64,000 nt of DNA from an uncultured Phascolarctobacterium sp. (GTDB lineage Bacteria > Bacillota > Negativicutes > Acidaminococcales > Acidaminococcaceae): the NCBI GenBank assembly GCA_949295115.1, contig CASFJU010000003.1, positions 1 through 64,000 of the forward strand, read 5' to 3'. This document shows, piece after piece, positions 5,669 through 62,924 of this stretch. The position numbers and the translations under genes were made by a program. Within the stretch, counting starts at the first letter, position 1. Each line of letters starts with the position of its first letter. The notes under the pieces are model-generated. The model ran no database searches and was not told where the DNA came from. It worked only from the letters and a program-made list of their open reading frames with translations.

Positions 5669-7426
5669 ATGCACCCGTTTTTAAAGTGGGCTGGTGGCAA
5701 AACACAGCTTTTAGATGAAATAAGAAAATACTATCCTTTCATCACTAAAAACATTACTAAATATGCTGAACCATTCATTGGCAGCGGTGCTGTTTTGTTT
5801 GATGTTCTTTCGCATTATACGCTGAAAGAAATATATATAAGCGATGTTAACAGAGAGTTAATCAACACCTATACGATTATTCGCAATAATATCAATGAAC
5901 TTGTAGAGTTATTGACAAAATATCAAAAAAAGTATTGGGGAATGAATTCATCTGAACAAAAAGAATATTATTTAAAACAACGAGACAGGTTTAATAATCT
6001 GAAAATAAACGGAAATACAAACGAAAATATCGAAAAAGCTGCATTAATGATCTTTTTAAATCGAACTTGTTTTAATGGACTTTATCGTGTTAATACCAAA
6101 GGCTTGTTTAATGTCCCGATAGGTTCTTATAAAAAACCTTTAATATGTGATGAGGAAAATTTAAGAGTAATATCAGAAAAATTACAAAATGTAAACATTA
6201 TATGCGGAGACTATAAATCATCGGCAGATTTTATTGATCAAAATACTTTTGTGTATTTTGATCCTCCGTATCGTCCAATTACTGAAACGGCTAATTTTAC
6301 TTCATATACGGAAAATATATTTGGAGATCAAGAACAAATTAAACTGGCTGAATTTGTTAAAAAAATTACGGGTAAAGGTGCGTTAATTCTTATTAGTAAT
6401 TCAGATCCCAAAAACACCAATATCAACGATACTTTTTTTGATAACCTTTACAAAGACTACGATATAAAGAGAGTAGAAGCTAATCGTATGATAAATTGTA
6501 ACGGTGAAGCACGCGGAAAAATTAATGAATTACTGATTTCAAATTTTAAAGGAGAAATGGGAATGGAAAACAGAGATTTTATTGTATGGTTAGCACATTT
6601 TAAAAAGAGCATTGCTAATTATGAATATTATACAGATTTCAAAAAAGTTTATCATAACGTTAATGAAATGAAAGTAGAATTAAATATTTTAAATTCCTTG
6701 ATTGGTTCTAAAAGCATAGAAGAAGATTTTGAAAATTTATTGTCTAAATATCCTGATGTTTTAAAATGTATACCAATTCTTTTGGCCGTACGTTCAAATG
6801 AAATTGATGCTATTGATGAAGAGGGTTCTTTTACTTATAATTTTGACGAGCCTAATCTTACAATAGAACAATATAAAAAATTTATGCGCAAGACAGGCTT
6901 GTTTGATTTAATTCAAAATCATATAATTAACAATCTTGTCGATTATGTTACAGGTGTAGAAACAGGCCTGGATTCCAATGGACGCAAAAATCGCGGCGGC
7001 CATTTAATGGAAAATTTAGTAGAAAGTTTTATTAAAAAAGCCGGTTTTATTAAAGACCAAACCTATTTTAAAGAAATGTATATCAGCCAAATTACTCAAA
7101 AATGGGGTATAGATTTATCTGCTATTTCTAATCAAGGCAAAATGGAAAAACGTTTTGATTTTGTCATAAAAACCGACAATATGATTTATGGTATTGAAAC
7201 GAACTTTTACAGCAGCGGCGGCAGCAAGTTAAATGAAACTGCCCGTAGTTATAAAACTCTTGCGTTAGAAACAGATACCATAAATGGTTTTACCTTTGTC
7301 TGGTTTACTGATGGCAAAGGCTGGAAAAGTGCCAGAAACAATCTTGAAGAAACCTTTGATGTCATGAAACATATCTACAATATTAACGATATGGAAAATG
7401 GCATAATTACAGAGGTTTTTAAATAA
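5669..7426 (+). CDS. Dam-type adenine methylase fused to a DpnII-type restriction endonuclease
   Basis: 585 residues; ATG at 5669 (MHPFLKWAGGK) with GGAGG upstream. Residues 1 to about 295 are a complete Dam/DpnM-family N6-adenine methyltransferase: WAGGK, PFIGSG (SAM-binding, 35-40), DPPY (198-201), INELLISNF at the usual C-terminus. From Met299 (MENRDFIVWLAHFKKS) the protein is a full DpnII-type endonuclease of about 287 residues, near the size of the free-standing enzyme, with FDFVIK and YGIETNF as likely PD-(D/E)xK-type active-site parts. In known DpnII systems these are separate genes and the site is GATC; the same specificity is inferred. The join keeps a ribosome-binding site and start codon for the nuclease, and losing one T from a T5 run ahead of an ancestral TAA would explain the fusion. 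Confidence 0.88.
   Translation: MHPFLKWAGGKTQLLDEIRKYYPFITKNITKYAEPFIGSGAVLFDVLSHYTLKEIYISDVNRELINTYTIIRNNINELVELLTKYQKKYWGMNSSEQKEYYLKQRDRFNNLKINGNTNENIEKAALMIFLNRTCFNGLYRVNTKGLFNVPIGSYKKPLICDEENLRVISEKLQNVNIICGDYKSSADFIDQNTFVYFDPPYRPITETANFTSYTENIFGDQEQIKLAEFVKKITGKGALILISNSDPKNTNINDTFFDNLYKDYDIKRVEANRMINCNGEARGKINELLISNFKGEMGMENRDFIVWLAHFKKSIANYEYYTDFKKVYHNVNEMKVELNILNSLIGSKSIEEDFENLLSKYPDVLKCIPILLAVRSNEIDAIDEEGSFTYNFDEPNLTIEQYKKFMRKTGLFDLIQNHIINNLVDYVTGVETGLDSNGRKNRGGHLMENLVESFIKKAGFIKDQTYFKEMYISQITQKWGIDLSAISNQGKMEKRFDFVIKTDNMIYGIETNFYSSGGSKLNETARSYKTLALETDTINGFTFVWFTDGKGWKSARNNLEETFDVMKHIYNINDMENGIITEVFK
6548..6565 (+). promoter_or_regulatory. Internal ribosome-binding site and start codon at the methylase/endonuclease junction
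   Basis: AAAGGAG (6548-6554) lies eight bases before an in-frame ATG (6563-6565) that begins MENRDF, the expected N-terminus of a free-standing DpnII-type nuclease. A second in-frame ATG at 6557 is too close to the site. Translation starting here would give the nuclease alone. Confidence 0.65.
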
Positions 7427-8172
7427 TGGTCAAAAAAATAAATACGTGGCAGCCTGAAGATTTTGAACTGGAAATGACAACGCATTGGTCATTTCCAAAA
7501 CGAGGCAATTGGGCAACCCATGACGCAAAATGGCGTGGTAACTGGTCGCCTTATATACCGCGCAATATTTTGCTGCGCTATTCGCAGGAAAATGATTTAG
7601 TATTAGACCAGTTTGCCGGTGGTGGAACTACACTAGTAGAAGCAAAATTGTTGAAAAGAAATATTATAGGTGTTGACGTTAACGATTTTGCGCTTAACAG
7701 ATGTAAAGAAAAAACAAATTTTGAATATCCGGACGCAACAGGTAAGGTTTATATTCGAAAAGGGGATGCAAGACATTTAGATTTTATTCCAAATGACAGT
7801 ATTGATCTTATCTGTACTCATCCACCTTATGCCAACATTATAAAATATAGCGAAGATATAGAAGGTGATTTATCACTTTTAAAAGTGCCGGATTTTTTAG
7901 ATGAAATGAAAATGGTAGCTGATGAAAGCTACCGTGTTTTAAAAAAAGATAAATTTTGTGCGATACTTATGGGAGATACACGTCAAAAAGGGCATGTTAT
8001 ACCAATGAGTTTTAAGGTAATGGAAATTTTTCAAAATGCCGGGTTTAAATTAAAAGAAACTATAATAAAAGAACAACATAACTGTCGCGCAACAGGCTAT
8101 TGGAAAATTAACAGCGTAAAATACAATTTTTTGCTATTGGCTCACGAGTATTTGTTTGTGTTCAAGAAGTAA
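7426..8172 (+). CDS. DNA methyltransferase (N4-cytosine/N6-adenine type)
   Basis: 248 residues; the ATG overlaps the TAA of the fusion gene by one base (TAATG), so translation is coupled. SAM-binding motif DQFAGGGTTLVEAKLL lies at about 63-78, and the catalytic loop is THPPY near residue 135, a variant of D/S-PPY. GNWSPYIPRNIL precedes motif I. Its motif order differs from DpnA, the second methylase of classic DpnII operons, where DPPY comes first, so it is not a plain DpnA. It most likely protects the same or an overlapping site as a companion methylase; the target base cannot be settled from sequence. AT-rich like the rest of the island. Confidence 0.82.
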   Translation: MVKKINTWQPEDFELEMTTHWSFPKRGNWATHDAKWRGNWSPYIPRNILLRYSQENDLVLDQFAGGGTTLVEAKLLKRNIIGVDVNDFALNRCKEKTNFEYPDATGKVYIRKGDARHLDFIPNDSIDLICTHPPYANIIKYSEDIEGDLSLLKVPDFLDEMKMVADESYRVLKKDKFCAILMGDTRQKGHVIPMSFKVMEIFQNAGFKLKETIIKEQHNCRATGYWKINSVKYNFLLLAHEYLFVFKK

Positions 8173-8185
8173 GGAGGAGATGTTT

Positions 8186-9916
8186 ATGGAATTAAAAGCA
8201 GTATCGTCAAGTATAGATGATGTTTTAAGACTTAGAAGGAAATATGTAATTCCAAGATTTCAAAGAGAATTTTCTTGGGACAAAGATGAGTTAATAGAAC
8301 TTTTTGATGATTTAATAGAAAATATAATTGTAAAAGACGGACAAATGTTGGCCAATGATTATTTTGTTGGTTCGTTAGTTCTGGTTGGTGATGATGATGA
8401 TACAACAAAAATAGAAAGATTTGTTGTAGATGGGCAGCAAAGGTTAACAACATTTACAGTAGCTTTTGCGGTTTTAGCACAAAAATTTAAGGATTTAAAC
8501 GAGACGACTTTAAGTGAAATTACTCATTTAAATGTTTTAGGTAAAGATAATGATGGTGTTTCATATGAAAAATTAGTAAATGAAAATCCTAAACCGTTTT
8601 TCCAAAAGAGAATACAAAGTAAAAATATTGATTTTAAAATTAAGCCGACGACTCAAGAGGAGAAAAGATTATTATATGCGTATAATTTTTTTGATAAACA
8701 ATTAAGCAAAGAATCTTTATTAGAGAGCATTAGAGAACACAATTGTTATAAAGGCGAATTGAATTATATAGATGCTTTAAAAGCGTTTAGAGACCAAATT
8801 TTGAAATGCAAAGTTATTTATGTTACTGTAAAATCATTTGATGATGCATATACAATATTTGAAGTTTTAAATGCCAAAGGCAAAGATCTAACTCCTGTTG
8901 ATATAATTAAAAATTCTATTTTTAGCATATTAACCGATCAAGTTCCTATTGATACAGCAGATGAAAAATGGAAATTTGCTAAAAATGAGATAAAAAAATG
9001 TAATTCAGTAGAATATAATACCTTTTATAGACATTATTGGATTTCAAAGTATTGTTTGTCAACGAGTCGCAATTTAGTAAAAAACTTTGAAAAACATATA
9101 AAAAAAGATATCGAAAGTTATTCTAAATTTATAGACGATTTAGCGGATGCTGCCAGTGATTATTCAAAAATAGTCGTTTCTAATGCAAATGATTGGAAAC
9201 AGCCGGAAGAGTTATCAACTTTTACTACATTATCATCATTAAATATTTTTAATGTTACACAAGTAAGAGTATTTCTTTTAGGCTTATTTGATGCCAAGAA
9301 GAGAAATGTAATTACTCATAAAAATTATAGAAAAATTTTAAATTATTTAGAGCATTTTCATTTTATTTTTACTGCAGTATGTTCAAGTAGACCTTCTGGT
9401 TTGGAACGAAGATATTCGTTTTATGCAAGAAAATTAAGGCATTGTAATACTAAAGAAGATAGTGAACGTTGTATTAACGATCTAATTACTGATTTAAGTG
9501 AATCTTTACCTGAATATAATGTATTTGAAAGTGCATTTAAAAATATTGTTTATACATCAATAGAGGAAAAGGATAAAAAGTTAGTTCAGTATATTCTAAA
9601 AAAAATAGAAACTTATTATTCTACTCCTGAACTTAAGCCAAATTCTTTTACTATTGAACATATAATGCCAGAATCAAGTAATAGAACAAAAATAGGAATG
9701 ATAGGCAATTTATTACCATTAGGAGACAAAATAAATAGCAATATTCAAGATAAAGATTTTAAAATAAAGTTAACTAAATATAAAGAATCACAATATGTAA
9801 CTGTGAGAAAATTTATAGAAGAATATCGTGATACAGAAGAATGGACAGAAGAGTTGATTCAAAAAAGAACTATTGATTTAGCTAAAATTTTATATGAAAA
9901 TATTATAGAAGGTTGA
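8186..9916 (+). CDS. DUF262/DUF1524 protein (GmrSD-type modification-dependent nuclease)
   Basis: 576 residues; ATG at 8186 eight bases after AAGGAGG, fourteen bases past the methyltransferase gene, so probably the last gene of that operon. The N-terminal DUF262 ParB/Srx-like domain shows [15 protein letters not shown] (about 24-38) and [10 protein letters not shown] (about 83-92), the NTP-binding/hydrolysis motif of GmrS. The C-terminal DUF1524 HNH-like nuclease has [10 protein letters not shown] and IGNLLPLG. Both halves are in one chain, as in the single-polypeptide GmrSD enzymes that cut glucosylated hydroxymethylcytosine DNA. Full length and apparently intact. The modified base it recognises is not known. 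Confidence 0.87.
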
Positions 9917-42162: not shown

Positions 42163-42693
42163 TTAGCTCTGCTTAAAGCGCGGCAAGATGTTTAACACAA
42201 CCGTGCTGCCAAAGTAGGCGGTAACAATGCCGCCGATAATATCCAGCGGGTAATGCACGCCAAGGTACAGGCGCGAAAACGCAACCAGCACGGCAAGCGC
42301 CATAATAAAGCCGCTGAAATATTTGGGCAGCAGGCGCCAATACACAAAAGCGCTGGCAAACGCCGCCGTGGTATGCCCGCTGGGGAAGGAATAGCCGCTT
42401 GCTTCGGCGAGCGGTGCAAGTTGTGTCAGCACTTCAAACGGGCGCGGGCGCATAACGGCGTTTTTTAAAATAACATTGCTGACAAACGTGCTTAACAATA
42501 GTGCCGCAGCTGCTGCAATGCCAACGCTGCGCGTTTTGGGGTTTATAATCAAAACGGCGGCGGTAAAAATCCAAAACCAGCCCAAATCGCCCAAAAAGCT
42601 TATGCCCGCCCAGAACCAGTGCAGCGGTTCGTGGTACAGCGCGTCATGTATAAAAAGCAAAAGCTGTGCGTCAAGCTGCGTTAAATATGCCAT
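42163..42693 (-). CDS. PAP2-family membrane phosphatase
   Basis: 176 residues with about five membrane helices. The three phosphatase motifs are present: KNAVMRPRP, YSFPSGHTT and SRLYLGVHYPLDIIGG. Likely dephosphorylates undecaprenyl diphosphate or phosphatidyl glycerophosphate at the membrane; sequence does not decide which. AGGAG upstream of the ATG. Confidence 0.9.
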   Translation of the reverse strand: MAYLTQLDAQLLLFIHDALYHEPLHWFWAGISFLGDLGWFWIFTAAVLIINPKTRSVGIAAAAALLLSTFVSNVILKNAVMRPRPFEVLTQLAPLAEASGYSFPSGHTTAAFASAFVYWRLLPKYFSGFIMALAVLVAFSRLYLGVHYPLDIIGGIVTAYFGSTVVLNILPRFKQS

Positions 42694-42762
42694 GCTGCCA
42701 CTCCTTTCCGCCTGCGGGCGTTTTTGTTATTTTTATTGTAACATAAATAAATTAAACGCATA

Positions 42763-45417
42763 TTAAAACCTGCTTGCGCTGATTTTTTTAAAAAACTTGC
42801 ACACTTCAATCTGCACGATGGAAAGTGCGGACAGTCCGAACACCGTCAGCCACAAACCGCCGCTGAGCGTGGTGAGCTTAAAGACGCTCTGCAAGGCAGG
42901 CAGCAGCAAAATGCAGGCCAGCAGCGCGGCGCTGACGGCAAAGCTTACCCACAGCCACGGGTTATGCCCTTCGGCGCGCACCCAGATGTATTCCGTATTG
43001 GAACGCTGGTTAAAGGCGCGCAGCATCTGCGAAAACGCCAGTACGCAGAACGCCATCGTCTGGCCGGTGCTGTGGCTGTGGCTTGCGCCGATGTAGTAGG
43101 CGGCAAGGGTCAGCATTGCCACAAACACGCCCTGCGTTACAACGCGGTGGATAAGGCCGCGTTCAAACAGCGTGCCGCTTTTTACGGGTTTGTGCTTCAT
43201 AATATTTTTGCTGGCAGGGTCAACGCCAAGTGCCAGTGCGGGCAGCGTAGCGGTAGCCAGGTTTACCCACAAAATATGCACTGCAAGCAGCGGCGCGGGC
43301 AGGTTAAACAGCGTGGCGGCAAATAAAGTGGTAATTTCGGCAATGTTGCCCGCCAGTAAAAACTGAATAACCTTTTGCAGATTGCGGTAGACGCGGCGGC
43401 CTTCCTTAATGGCAAAGGCAATGGTGTTAAAGCTGTCGTCCAGAAGTATCATATCTGCCGCGTTTTTGGCAACGTCGGTGCCGGTAATGCCCATGGCGAT
43501 GCCGATGTCCGCAGCTTTCAGCGCGGGCGAATCGTTCACGCCGTCGCCGGTCATGGCGGCAATTTCGCCGGTGCGTTTCAGCGACTGGATAATGCGAAGC
43601 TTATCGGCGGGGGATACGCGCGCAAACACGGTGGTATTTTTTACTGCGCTGTCCAGCTCCGCGTCCGTCATGGCGTTCAGCTCGCTGCCGGATATAACCA
43701 TATCGCCGTCGCGGTAAATATCCAGCTCGCGCGCAATGGCAGCAGCGGTAATTTTGTGGTCGCCGGTAATCATCACGGTACGGATGCCTGCTTCGCGGCA
43801 GGTGCGCACGGCAGCGGCAACTTCCTTGCGCGGCGGGTCAATCATGCCGGCGGCGCCGATAAAGGTTAAGCCGTGCTCAATGTTTTCATCGTCATCCTGC
43901 GGCACGGAGGCAAGCGTTTTGGTGGCAAAGCCCAGCACGCGCAAAGCCTGCTGCGACATCTTATGGCACAGCGCTGAAATATTTTCCTTATCACTTTCGG
44001 TAATCTGGCGCACGCCCTGCGCCGTTAAAATATGGCTGCACAGCGGCAGCATTTCATCAACCGCGCCCTTGGTGTAAGCGGTAAAGCAGCCGTTAATTTT
44101 ATGCACGGTCGTCATGCGCTTGCGCGCCGAATCAAAAGGCTGCTCAAACAGGCGCGGGTATTTATCTTCCAAAGCGTCGTGGTTAATGCCAAACTTCTGC
44201 GCCAGGTAAATCAGCGCGCCCTCCGTCGGGTCGCCGATAATCTCGCCCTTGCGGTCAGGGTCAAGGCTCGCGTCGTTGCACAGCGCGGCGGCGTAAACAA
44301 GTTCCCTGTACAGCGCAGGGTGCTGCATGGCAGCGGTGTCGGTAGGGGTGGCGCTCTGCTTTTCAAAATCGCCGTTCAGCGCCAGCTGCGTCACCGTCAT
44401 TTTGTTCAGCGTAAGCGTGCCGGTTTTGTCGCTGCAAATTACCGTCGCGCTGCCCAAAGTTTCAACGGAAGGCAGCTTGCGTATCAGCGCGTTCTGTTTT
44501 GCCATACGCTGTACGCCCAGCGCCATGGCAATGGTGGCGGTGGCGGGCAGCCCTTCCGGGATGATGGAAATAGCCAGCGACACCGCGATTAAAAACTGCG
44601 GCACCAGCGGGCGTCCGTAAAAAGCGCCCAGCGCAAAAATCAGCACGCAAACGATTAAACCGATAACCGTAAGCGTCTTGCCCGCAGCGTTCAGCTTGCG
44701 TTTCAGCGGCGTGTCAAACTCGTCCTGCCCGTCCAGCAGTGCGGCAATGCTGCCAACCTCCGTCCTCATGCCGGTGGCGGTGGCAATGCCTACGGCGCGC
44801 CCGTAAGTAACTATCGAGCCCGCATAAGCCATATTCGCGCGGTCGCCCAGCGGGCAATCTTCCGGCAGCACAACCTCTGCTTCCTTTTCGGCAGCGACCG
44901 ATTCACCCGTCAGCGAAGCCTCCTGAATCTGCAAATTGGCGCTGTCTGCCAAACGCAGGTCGGCGGGCACCATATCGCCGTCGCTTAAAAACACAATGTC
45001 GCCGGGCACAACTTCCCTTGCGGGGATAATGCTTTCCTCGCCCTGCCTTAACACGCGCGCGTTAGGCGCGGACATGCTGCGCAAAGCCTCCAGCGCGGAC
45101 TGCGCCTTTTTCTCCTGCACAATGCCGATAAGGGCGTTGACGATGACGATGGTAAAAATTACGCCTGCTTCCGCCAGCTCGCCCAGCGCGAAGGACACTG
45201 CCGCCGCACCGACGAGGATTAAAACCATCGGGTCGAAAATCTGCTCTTTAAGCATGGCGGCAATGCTTTTGGGCGGCTTGGCGCGCAGTTCGTTATAGCC
45301 GTATTGCCGCAGCCGTTCAGCCGCTTGTGCGTCGCTCAAACCTTCGGCGCTGCTGCCGAGCTGTTGGTAAACCTGTTGTAAATTTTGTGCGTGTGCATTG
45401 TTACTGTGATAATCCAT
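42763..45417 (-). CDS. P-type cation ATPase, type IIA-like
   Basis: 884 residues from MDYHSNNAHAQNLQQ; the ATG at 45417 is about 13 bases after AAGGGAG. Actuator TGES in EASLTGESVAAEKE, phosphorylation site CSDKTGTLTLNKM, hinge TGDGVNDSPALKAADIGIAMG. Ion site in TM4 IIPEGLPATATIAMALG (Glu kept), TM5 GNIAEITTLF (Asn and Glu kept), but TM6 reads NLATATLPALALG where Ca pumps have N-L-V-T-D: the coordinating Asp is Ala. So Ca2+ is not certain. The gene sits behind a 40-codon leader peptide and terminator. Confidence 0.9.
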   Translation of the reverse strand: MDYHSNNAHAQNLQQVYQQLGSSAEGLSDAQAAERLRQYGYNELRAKPPKSIAAMLKEQIFDPMVLILVGAAAVSFALGELAEAGVIFTIVIVNALIGIVQEKKAQSALEALRSMSAPNARVLRQGEESIIPAREVVPGDIVFLSDGDMVPADLRLADSANLQIQEASLTGESVAAEKEAEVVLPEDCPLGDRANMAYAGSIVTYGRAVGIATATGMRTEVGSIAALLDGQDEFDTPLKRKLNAAGKTLTVIGLIVCVLIFALGAFYGRPLVPQFLIAVSLAISIIPEGLPATATIAMALGVQRMAKQNALIRKLPSVETLGSATVICSDKTGTLTLNKMTVTQLALNGDFEKQSATPTDTAAMQHPALYRELVYAAALCNDASLDPDRKGEIIGDPTEGALIYLAQKFGINHDALEDKYPRLFEQPFDSARKRMTTVHKINGCFTAYTKGAVDEMLPLCSHILTAQGVRQITESDKENISALCHKMSQQALRVLGFATKTLASVPQDDDENIEHGLTFIGAAGMIDPPRKEVAAAVRTCREAGIRTVMITGDHKITAAAIARELDIYRDGDMVISGSELNAMTDAELDSAVKNTTVFARVSPADKLRIIQSLKRTGEIAAMTGDGVNDSPALKAADIGIAMGITGTDVAKNAADMILLDDSFNTIAFAIKEGRRVYRNLQKVIQFLLAGNIAEITTLFAATLFNLPAPLLAVHILWVNLATATLPALALGVDPASKNIMKHKPVKSGTLFERGLIHRVVTQGVFVAMLTLAAYYIGASHSHSTGQTMAFCVLAFSQMLRAFNQRSNTEYIWVRAEGHNPWLWVSFAVSAALLACILLLPALQSVFKLTTLSGGLWLTVFGLSALSIVQIEVCKFFKKISASRF

Positions 45418-45476
45418 AAAGGATTCATCACTCCCTTCGTAAAAATTTTTATAGCCAAAGCGCATAGCGCAAGTGC

Positions 45477-45599
45477 TTAAAACAAAAAGGCATAGCCCGC
45501 AGTCCCAAACGGAACGCAGGTTATGCCTTTAAAAATTTGCGTTTTTAAATTGTAAGCACCGTTATTTCGGTGAGGGTCACTGTCGTCAGAGGCAGTCAT
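45477..45599 (-). CDS. Putative leader peptide of the P-type ATPase gene
   Basis: 40 codons, too short for the usual ORF cut-off. ATG at 45599 lies eight bases after GGAAAGGA (complement of 45608-45615). The peptide opens MTASDDSDPHRNN, i.e. three Asp and a Pro within the first nine residues, then GAYNLKTQIFKG, ITCVPFGTAGYAFLF. Its last third overlaps a terminator hairpin. Acidic residues followed by Pro near the N-terminus are the pattern that makes ribosomes unstable at low Mg2+ in the E. coli and Salmonella MgtL leader. I do not recognise this peptide as a named family; the regulatory role is inference. Confidence 0.6.
   Translation of the reverse strand: MTASDDSDPHRNNGAYNLKTQIFKGITCVPFGTAGYAFLF
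45486..45530 (-). terminator. Attenuator-type terminator inside the ATPase leader
   Basis: AAAGGCATA (45486-45494) and TATGCCTTT (45522-45530) close a stem extended by CCCGCAGTCCC/GGAACGCAGG-type pairs; on the minus strand it is followed by TTTTTG. Placed between leader promoter and ATPase gene, and overlapped by codons 24-39 of the leader peptide. Confidence 0.7.
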
Positions 45600-45656
45600 G
45601 GTAATTTTCCTTTCCAAAAGCGGGAAGAAACTAAATAAGATGTGTTATCACTTTGA

Positions 45657-45685
45657 ATGTTAGCATAGCTTTACCTATTTGTCAA
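45657..45685 (-). promoter_or_regulatory. Promoter of the ATPase leader transcript
   Basis: Minus strand TTGACA (complement of 45680-45685), 17-base spacer, TAACAT (complement of 45657-45662). Predicted RNA start near 45650, giving a 230-base leader before the ATPase start codon. Confidence 0.65.
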
Positions 45686-45801
45686 GATAGCAAAGGGTTA
45701 AATCGGAAAGATGTAGTATGATTTATTATCTGTGCAGGCAGGTATTTTTTGCGCGCGCATTGAATATTACACTATTGCAGTTTAACGGAAGGGGTGAAGT
45801 T

Positions 45802-62691: not shown

Positions 62692-62767
62692 TCCCCGATA
62701 GTTCAGCCGGTAGAACACCTGACTGTTAATCAGGGCGTCGTAGGTTCGAGTCCTACTCGGGGAGCCA
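62692..62767 (+). tRNA. tRNA-Asn (GTT)
   Basis: TCCCCGA acceptor arm pairs with TCGGGGA; anticodon loop CTGTTAA gives GTT; TTCGAGT T-loop; CCA is encoded. ANN codon reader, hence a target of the t6A genes tsaB/D/E in this window. Confidence 0.96.
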
Positions 62768-62770
62768 CCT

Positions 62771-62845
62771 GGCCGGTTGGTCAAGCGGTTAAGACACCGC
62801 CCTTTCACGGCGGTATCGGGGGTTCGATTCCCCCACCGGTCACCA
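62771..62845 (+). tRNA. tRNA-Glu (TTC)
   Basis: GGCCGGT/ACCGGTC acceptor arm, anticodon stem CCGCC/GGCGG with loop CTTTCAC giving TTC, GGTTCGATTC T-arm, encoded CCA. Confidence 0.96.
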
Positions 62846-62848
62846 TTC

Positions 62849-62924
62849 GGGCGCTTAGCTCAGCTGGGAGAGCGTCTGCCTTACAAGCAGAATGTCAGCG
62901 GTTCGATCCCGTTAGCGCCCACCA
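62849..62924 (+). tRNA. tRNA-Val (TAC)
   Basis: GGGCGCT/AGCGCCC acceptor arm, TCTGC/GCAGA anticodon stem with loop CTTACAA giving TAC, encoded CCA. Confidence 0.96.

Follow-up and report, generated by a model that had tools for sequence, protein, structure and literature searches.

Sensing by intrinsic ribosome destabilization (IRD) is documented in enterobacteria for importers of Mg2+. Acidic N-termini cause ribosomes to drop off in Escherichia coli, more strongly at low Mg2+, and control mgtA via the leader peptide MgtL (PMC11282234), and mgtB is reported to be controlled via the upstream open reading frame (uORF) mgtQ, where bL31 opposes the destabilization (PMC8092293). Here, we analyzed a stretch of 64,000 nucleotides from an uncultured Phascolarctobacterium sp. 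(contig CASFJU010000003.1, positions 1 to 64,000; referred to as the window), in which a short open reading frame (ORF) overlapping an intrinsic terminator lies between a promoter and the gene of a P-type ATPase. The comparison with relatives in Clostridia strongly supports that this leader is conserved as a peptide and that its acidic charge is kept rather than the identity of its codons. It represents a real, conserved and, apparently, so far undescribed leader-peptide attenuator, a variation on the principle of acidic (IRD) leaders; we found no description of such a leader in Firmicutes in the open-access literature searched.

The arrangement resembles that of MgtL, which belongs to mgtA in E. 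coli and Salmonella, in that a short ORF with an acidic extreme N-terminus is located upstream of a cation P-type ATPase and in that termination of transcription within the leader would set expression (PMC11282234). The hallmarks of IRD leaders are present, i.e. a short ORF has acidic residues among its initial ~10 codons, and it lies in the leader of a cation-transporter gene, ahead of a switch in termination or translation. However, no sequence relation to MgtL was recognized, and the leader is of Gram-positive origin. Moreover, its terminator is intrinsic, with a T tract at all loci, whereas that of MgtL is Rho-dependent, and it carries an Asp/Ser block without a conserved proline in place of the EPDP of MgtL.

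Conservation of the acidic leader peptide

Three sister genomes encode exactly the same leader peptide (100% identity), on leader DNA of 97-98% identity. The differences within the coding sequence are two substitutions, both of which are synonymous and located in the hairpin loop region. Since this divergence is too small, the sister genomes alone are insufficient to judge conservation. A search with the leader peptide within the order yielded weak matches only beyond the four sister genomes, which is due to the fact that conservation is confined to the first 11 residues.

In a range of Clostridia, ATPases of the same clade are preceded by leader ORFs with the consensus M-D-D-[AS]-D-S-S-D-[AST]-D-R. 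At the 23 distinct loci compared, the leader lies 157-211 nt upstream of the ATPase. The leader MDDADSSDADRSN is present in Yanshouia, Butyricicoccus, and Anaeromassilibacillus, and MDDSDESDSERS in Metaclostridioides; further examples are MDDADSDAARS (Hungatella), MDDSDSSNNNN (Clostridium sp. 12(A)), MDASDSDADGK, and MESDSGESDSN. On average, positions 2-11 of the 23 leaders contain 4.5 acidic residues, and positions 12-24 contain almost none; among window ORFs of 20-60 amino acids (aa), 0.6% carry at least three acidic residues at positions 2-11. A degenerate MDDxDSSDxD pattern gave one match in 291 Clostridia genomes, at the end of a contig that continues into the contig starting with the ATPase of the same genome.

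Several tests at the codon level support translation of the leader. The leader frame is open from the ATG to the hairpin at all loci (23/23), compared to 3/23 and 0/23 for the other two frames and to a mean open-frame probability of 0.30 in shuffled sequence. Diversity in the 11-codon block is lowest at the second and highest at the third codon position (0.22, 0.12, and 0.29 for positions 1, 2, and 3, respectively). Synonymous codon differences amounted to 0.38 versus 0.18 +/- 0.06 under column permutation (1/2000 permutations), and synonymous-or-conservative differences to 0.70 versus 0.33 (0/2000); these counts are non-independent, as the sequences are related, and column permutation preserves that relatedness. 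Conservation at the RNA level only, which the sequence-only reading had set against its own proposal, was therefore not what we observed, the amino acids being conserved across the 23 loci.

The exchanges tolerated within the block also bear on classical amino-acid attenuation, according to which stalling at Asp (or Ser) codons would report tRNA charging. Indeed, most leaders have 4-5 Asp among codons 2-11. However, Glu stands in place of Asp or within the acidic block at four loci (L073, L169, L176, and L089), Ser, Ala, and Thr interchange, and codon deletions are tolerated, so that charge is kept and not the codon. Neither a run of codons for one amino acid nor an accompanying antiterminator was found, in contrast to the His leaders of Firmicutes (hisS/hisZ), which likewise place a short ORF ahead of an intrinsic terminator but use runs of one amino-acid codon (PMC2965389). 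In addition, a cation pump is unconnected to Asp supply. We consider amino-acid attenuation highly improbable; ribosome drop-off fits better than tRNA sensing because charge rather than the codon is conserved and Asp/Glu swaps are tolerated.

Beyond the acidic block, the peptide is variable in sequence and length (19-75 aa), and it is therefore unlikely that the leader is a functional protein. At three loci (L083, L167, and L168), the leader ORF terminates on the ATPase start (TAATG). Of the Asp/Pro-rich N-terminus proposed earlier, the acidic part holds, with Asp, Ser, and Glu being conserved, whereas proline is not: Pro9, which lies together with three Asp in the IRD-type acidic segment of the window leader, is specific to the window lineage. 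Similarly, the importance assigned to codons 24-39 is borne out insofar as the frame is kept open up to the terminator, but their sequence and length are not conserved.

Terminator, leader RNA, and the proposed switch

The terminator is present at all loci, including the T tract, with energies mostly between -17 and -32 kcal/mol and of about -11 kcal/mol in Metaclostridioides. At L067 and L068, the hairpin was placed by eye; the script had chosen a later hairpin. Double-sided compensatory changes were found for 8 of the 11 consensus pairs. A simple terminator scan overlooked the terminator of the window, whose interrupted stem and U-tract geometry probably exceed the limits of the scan. An origin of the terminator from a dispersed repeat was tested and excluded. 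In single-sequence folds of L083 (2844-3011), L162, and L176, UCAGAAUA may pair with UAUUCUGA to form an outer helix that surrounds the terminator, and a possible GC hairpin was seen in folds from Oscillospirales.

The terminator stem AGGCATAACC is also well conserved in sequence, and a hairpin is present at the ATPase start codon, as might be expected if an unrelated small ORF merely lay over a riboswitch or a protein-bound RNA element conserved at the RNA level. However, the codon-level tests reject a constraint on RNA only, and RNAalifold detects no structure except the terminator. Mn2+, M-box, and NiCo riboswitches are cis-acting attenuators of metal transporter genes; in contrast, an Rfam search with the leader of the window and of ten relatives gave nothing at gathering score, the best weak matches being far below threshold, in agreement with the earlier statement that no known riboswitch consensus was found. 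An RNA element of this kind thus has a very small probability in our view. Overall, the comparative evidence strongly supports the core of the sequence-only reading, namely a translated leader and a terminator controlling the P-type ATPase, with an active acidic N-terminus.

At 20 of 22 loci, none of the upstream leader segments paired better with the 5' arm of the terminator than shuffles did. An RNA antiterminator is therefore not evident, in contrast to MgtL, which uses an RNA rearrangement at low Mg2+. Where the leader stop codon precedes the hairpin, it does so by 5 nt at most (L067 and L068 were read by eye); consequently, a ribosome that has passed the acidic codons always meets the 5' arm of the terminator. 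These data favor, with moderate confidence, a leader-peptide attenuator in which translation through the acidic block would mask the intrinsic terminator and turn the pump on, while drop-off would turn it off. The promoter would yield a leader RNA whose default fold, judging from sequence, energy, and covariation, is the intrinsic terminator. A ribosome passing the acidic codons would reach or cover the 5' arm, and, given this geometry, complete translation would stop the terminator from forming, so that the ATPase is transcribed. Ribosomes that are unstable on the acidic nascent chain would instead drop off, the terminator would form, and the pump would remain off. As low Mg2+ would promote drop-off, a P2-type exporter would be on when divalent cations are plentiful. 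The predicted output is likely the reverse of that of MgtL, which would suit an exporter; the ATPase is of P2A type, not MgtA. The attenuator may sense metal, as hypothesized before, or the stability of ribosomes, in either case through translation.

Several points weigh against this attenuator. Translation of the window leader ends beyond the hairpin, and masking presupposes an appropriate timing between ribosome and RNA polymerase. We infer drop-off, the response to Mg2+, and termination in this particular leader, and the putative exporter function is taken from family membership. The window peptide contains no more than three Asp and no longer has DD at positions 2-3; its response may therefore be weaker. 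Finally, several homologues (L145, L178, and the Lactobacillus johnsonii group) no longer have the leader, which is therefore dispensable.

Alternatively, the acidic leader could be wired as in MgtL, with drop-off at low Mg2+ turning the ATPase, then an importer, on through an unrecognized RNA rearrangement. The known acidic leaders MgtL and MgtQ raise Mg2+ importer expression upon ribosome drop-off (PMC11282234, PMC8092293), and the start codon of the ATPase is covered by a hairpin, as for mgtB (PMC8092293). However, there is no conserved antiterminator competing with the terminator, and the pump is P2A-like. In addition, the leader frames continue without a stop into the terminator or past it, and those of the L083 type end on the ATPase start, both of which favor activation by translation. 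We therefore regard the MgtL-like wiring as fairly unlikely.

The attenuator favored here could also respond to a signal other than Mg2+, either the state of translation factors or energy (ABC-F/EttA, a bL31 variant) or the direct binding of Ca2+ or Mn2+ to the nascent Asp-rich peptide. In E. coli, acidic N-terminal motifs, that of MgtL among them, are rescued by EttA (PMC11282234), and bL31 counters destabilization at MgtQ (PMC8092293). The conserved D-x-D-S-S-D-x-D may moreover resemble a set of metal ligands, but the tolerated exchange of Asp and Glu and the codon deletions are unlike a precise metal site. Such signals appear quite unlikely to us.

The hairpin at the ATPase start codon has z scores of -4.4 in the window and of -3.9 on average across the leader-bearing loci. 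Compensatory changes are found in relatives (GAU/AUCC, GAA/UUCC, and GAC/GUCC), and the observed stem score was reached in 0/500 permutations, although the sequences are related. A hairpin likewise sequesters the downstream ribosome-binding site (RBS) in the case of the Salmonella mgtQ uORF (mgtB; PMC8092293). In contrast to mgtQ, which works on translation within an operon, the main switch here would be the intrinsic terminator, and the RBS hairpin is kept in some leaderless members (L145, L178, and others). Because it persists where the leader is lost, the hairpin is a separate layer, which probably adds translational control.

The pump, its locus, and its history

The ATPase is P2A-like according to whole-length similarity and the DKTGT motif. 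The best NCBIfam models are TIGR01522 and TIGR01116 (E about 1e-200), with matches that fall short of the curated cut-offs, and the Listeria Ca2+-ATPase LMCA1 (lmo0841) is the best match in the PDB and provides the closest solved structures. Homologues in Clostridia are 60-77% identical to the window ATPase. LMCA1 and SERCA carry an essential Asp in transmembrane segment 6 (TM6); the window ATPase and most leader-bearing homologues instead have NLATATLPA in TM6, so that the equivalent of SERCA D800 is absent. In contrast, homologues of 60-63% identity retain the TM6 Asp while carrying the same leader, and the transported ion is therefore uncertain. The TM6 Asp appears to have been lost once within the leader-bearing clade.

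The leader-bearing ATPases form one clade (FastTree support 0.999), whose earliest branch, L169, carries the leader. No such leader was seen in ATPase homologues of 42-48% identity, in which respect the clade differs from LMCA1. In the second Hungatella copy (L145), the post-terminator region directly follows the promoter, i.e. leader and terminator are deleted, and the pump would therefore be constitutive.

As read earlier from the DNA, a promoter, an ORF (40 codons, good RBS), and a terminator precede the ATPase, and their coordinates were confirmed (Table 1). The promoter matches 10 of 12 consensus positions, and both hexamers are kept in four sister genomes. A longer ATPase start was excluded because of an in-frame TAA upstream of MDY in sister genome G002.

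Table 1 Features of the leader-ATPase locus in the window
Feature	Position	Strand	Remarks
Sigma-70-like promoter	45657..45685	-	TTGACA 45685-45680, 17-nt spacer, TAACAT 45662-45657, TG extension
Shine-Dalgarno sequence of the leader ORF, GGAAAGGA	about 45608..45615	-	8 nt 5' of ATG 45599; invariant in 4 genomes
Leader ORF, 40 codons and stop	45477..45599	-	ATG 45599; peptide MTASDDSDPHRNNGAYNLKTQIFKGITCVPFGTAGYAFLF, beginning MTASDDSDPHRNN; counterpart of the Clostridial MDD[AS]DSSD[AST]DR leaders
N-terminal acidic block, codons 1-11	45567..45599	-	Alignment and codon-level tests; proposed ribosome-destabilizing segment
Intrinsic terminator (plus a U tract)	45484..45530	-	Overlaps leader codons 24-39; dG about -26 kcal/mol; covaries in relatives
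Shine-Dalgarno sequence of the ATPase, GAAGGGAG	45431..45438	-	Read from sequence
Start-codon hairpin, end of ATPase Shine-Dalgarno sequence and AUG	45406..45431	-	GUGAU..AUCC-loop-GGAU..AUCAC
P2-type ATPase, Ca2+-ATPase-like	42763..45417	-	Start ATG 45417 (MDYHSNN...); TM6 NLATATLPA

Within the family of the window organism, the ATPase is confined to four sister genomes, the next best match being 45% identical (59 genomes), and the branch of the window ATPase nests among Clostridia in the tree. Leader and pump were therefore transferred together horizontally from Clostridia. Another genome of the same genus (G005) is without the pump and has retained the terminator (96% over 49 nt), which occupies the same slot as in the window, between a hydantoinase-like and a PAP2 gene, but now behind an autotransporter gene (L061:12023-14530, corresponding to window 42693-45718). 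Most simply, this hairpin is what remained after a leader-ATPase unit had been lost. The idea that it is an older terminator of the autotransporter gene, and the leader a deletion scar, was dropped, since Clostridial leaders carry the same hairpin.

A PAP2-like gene is located downstream of the window pump. Genes named from reading of the sequence as recombinase-like and mobilization-like are found beside the pump at two loci (L067:874-2481 and 5767-8368; L069:5789-7438), and a gene named in the same way as undecaprenyl-pyrophosphate-phosphatase-like lies downstream of the pump at L067. No plasmid carrying the L069 leader region was found. Elsewhere in the window, three tandem tRNA genes are present on the plus strand (62692-62921).

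Implications for IRD sensing

We tentatively propose, as a possibility that goes beyond the single locus, that Firmicutes possess a widespread family of charge-sensing IRD leaders that act through an intrinsic terminator without an antiterminator. These leaders would turn on a divalent-cation exporter at high Mg2+, with the start-codon hairpin as a second switch, and the exporter would belong to a P2 subclade without the Ca2+-binding Asp. If true, the leader directs attention to this pump subclade and the ion it carries. It would also mean that IRD sensing serves Gram-positive gut bacteria through a much simpler circuit, in which the presence or absence of a ribosome over an intrinsic terminator decides and the output is probably opposite to the enterobacterial one.
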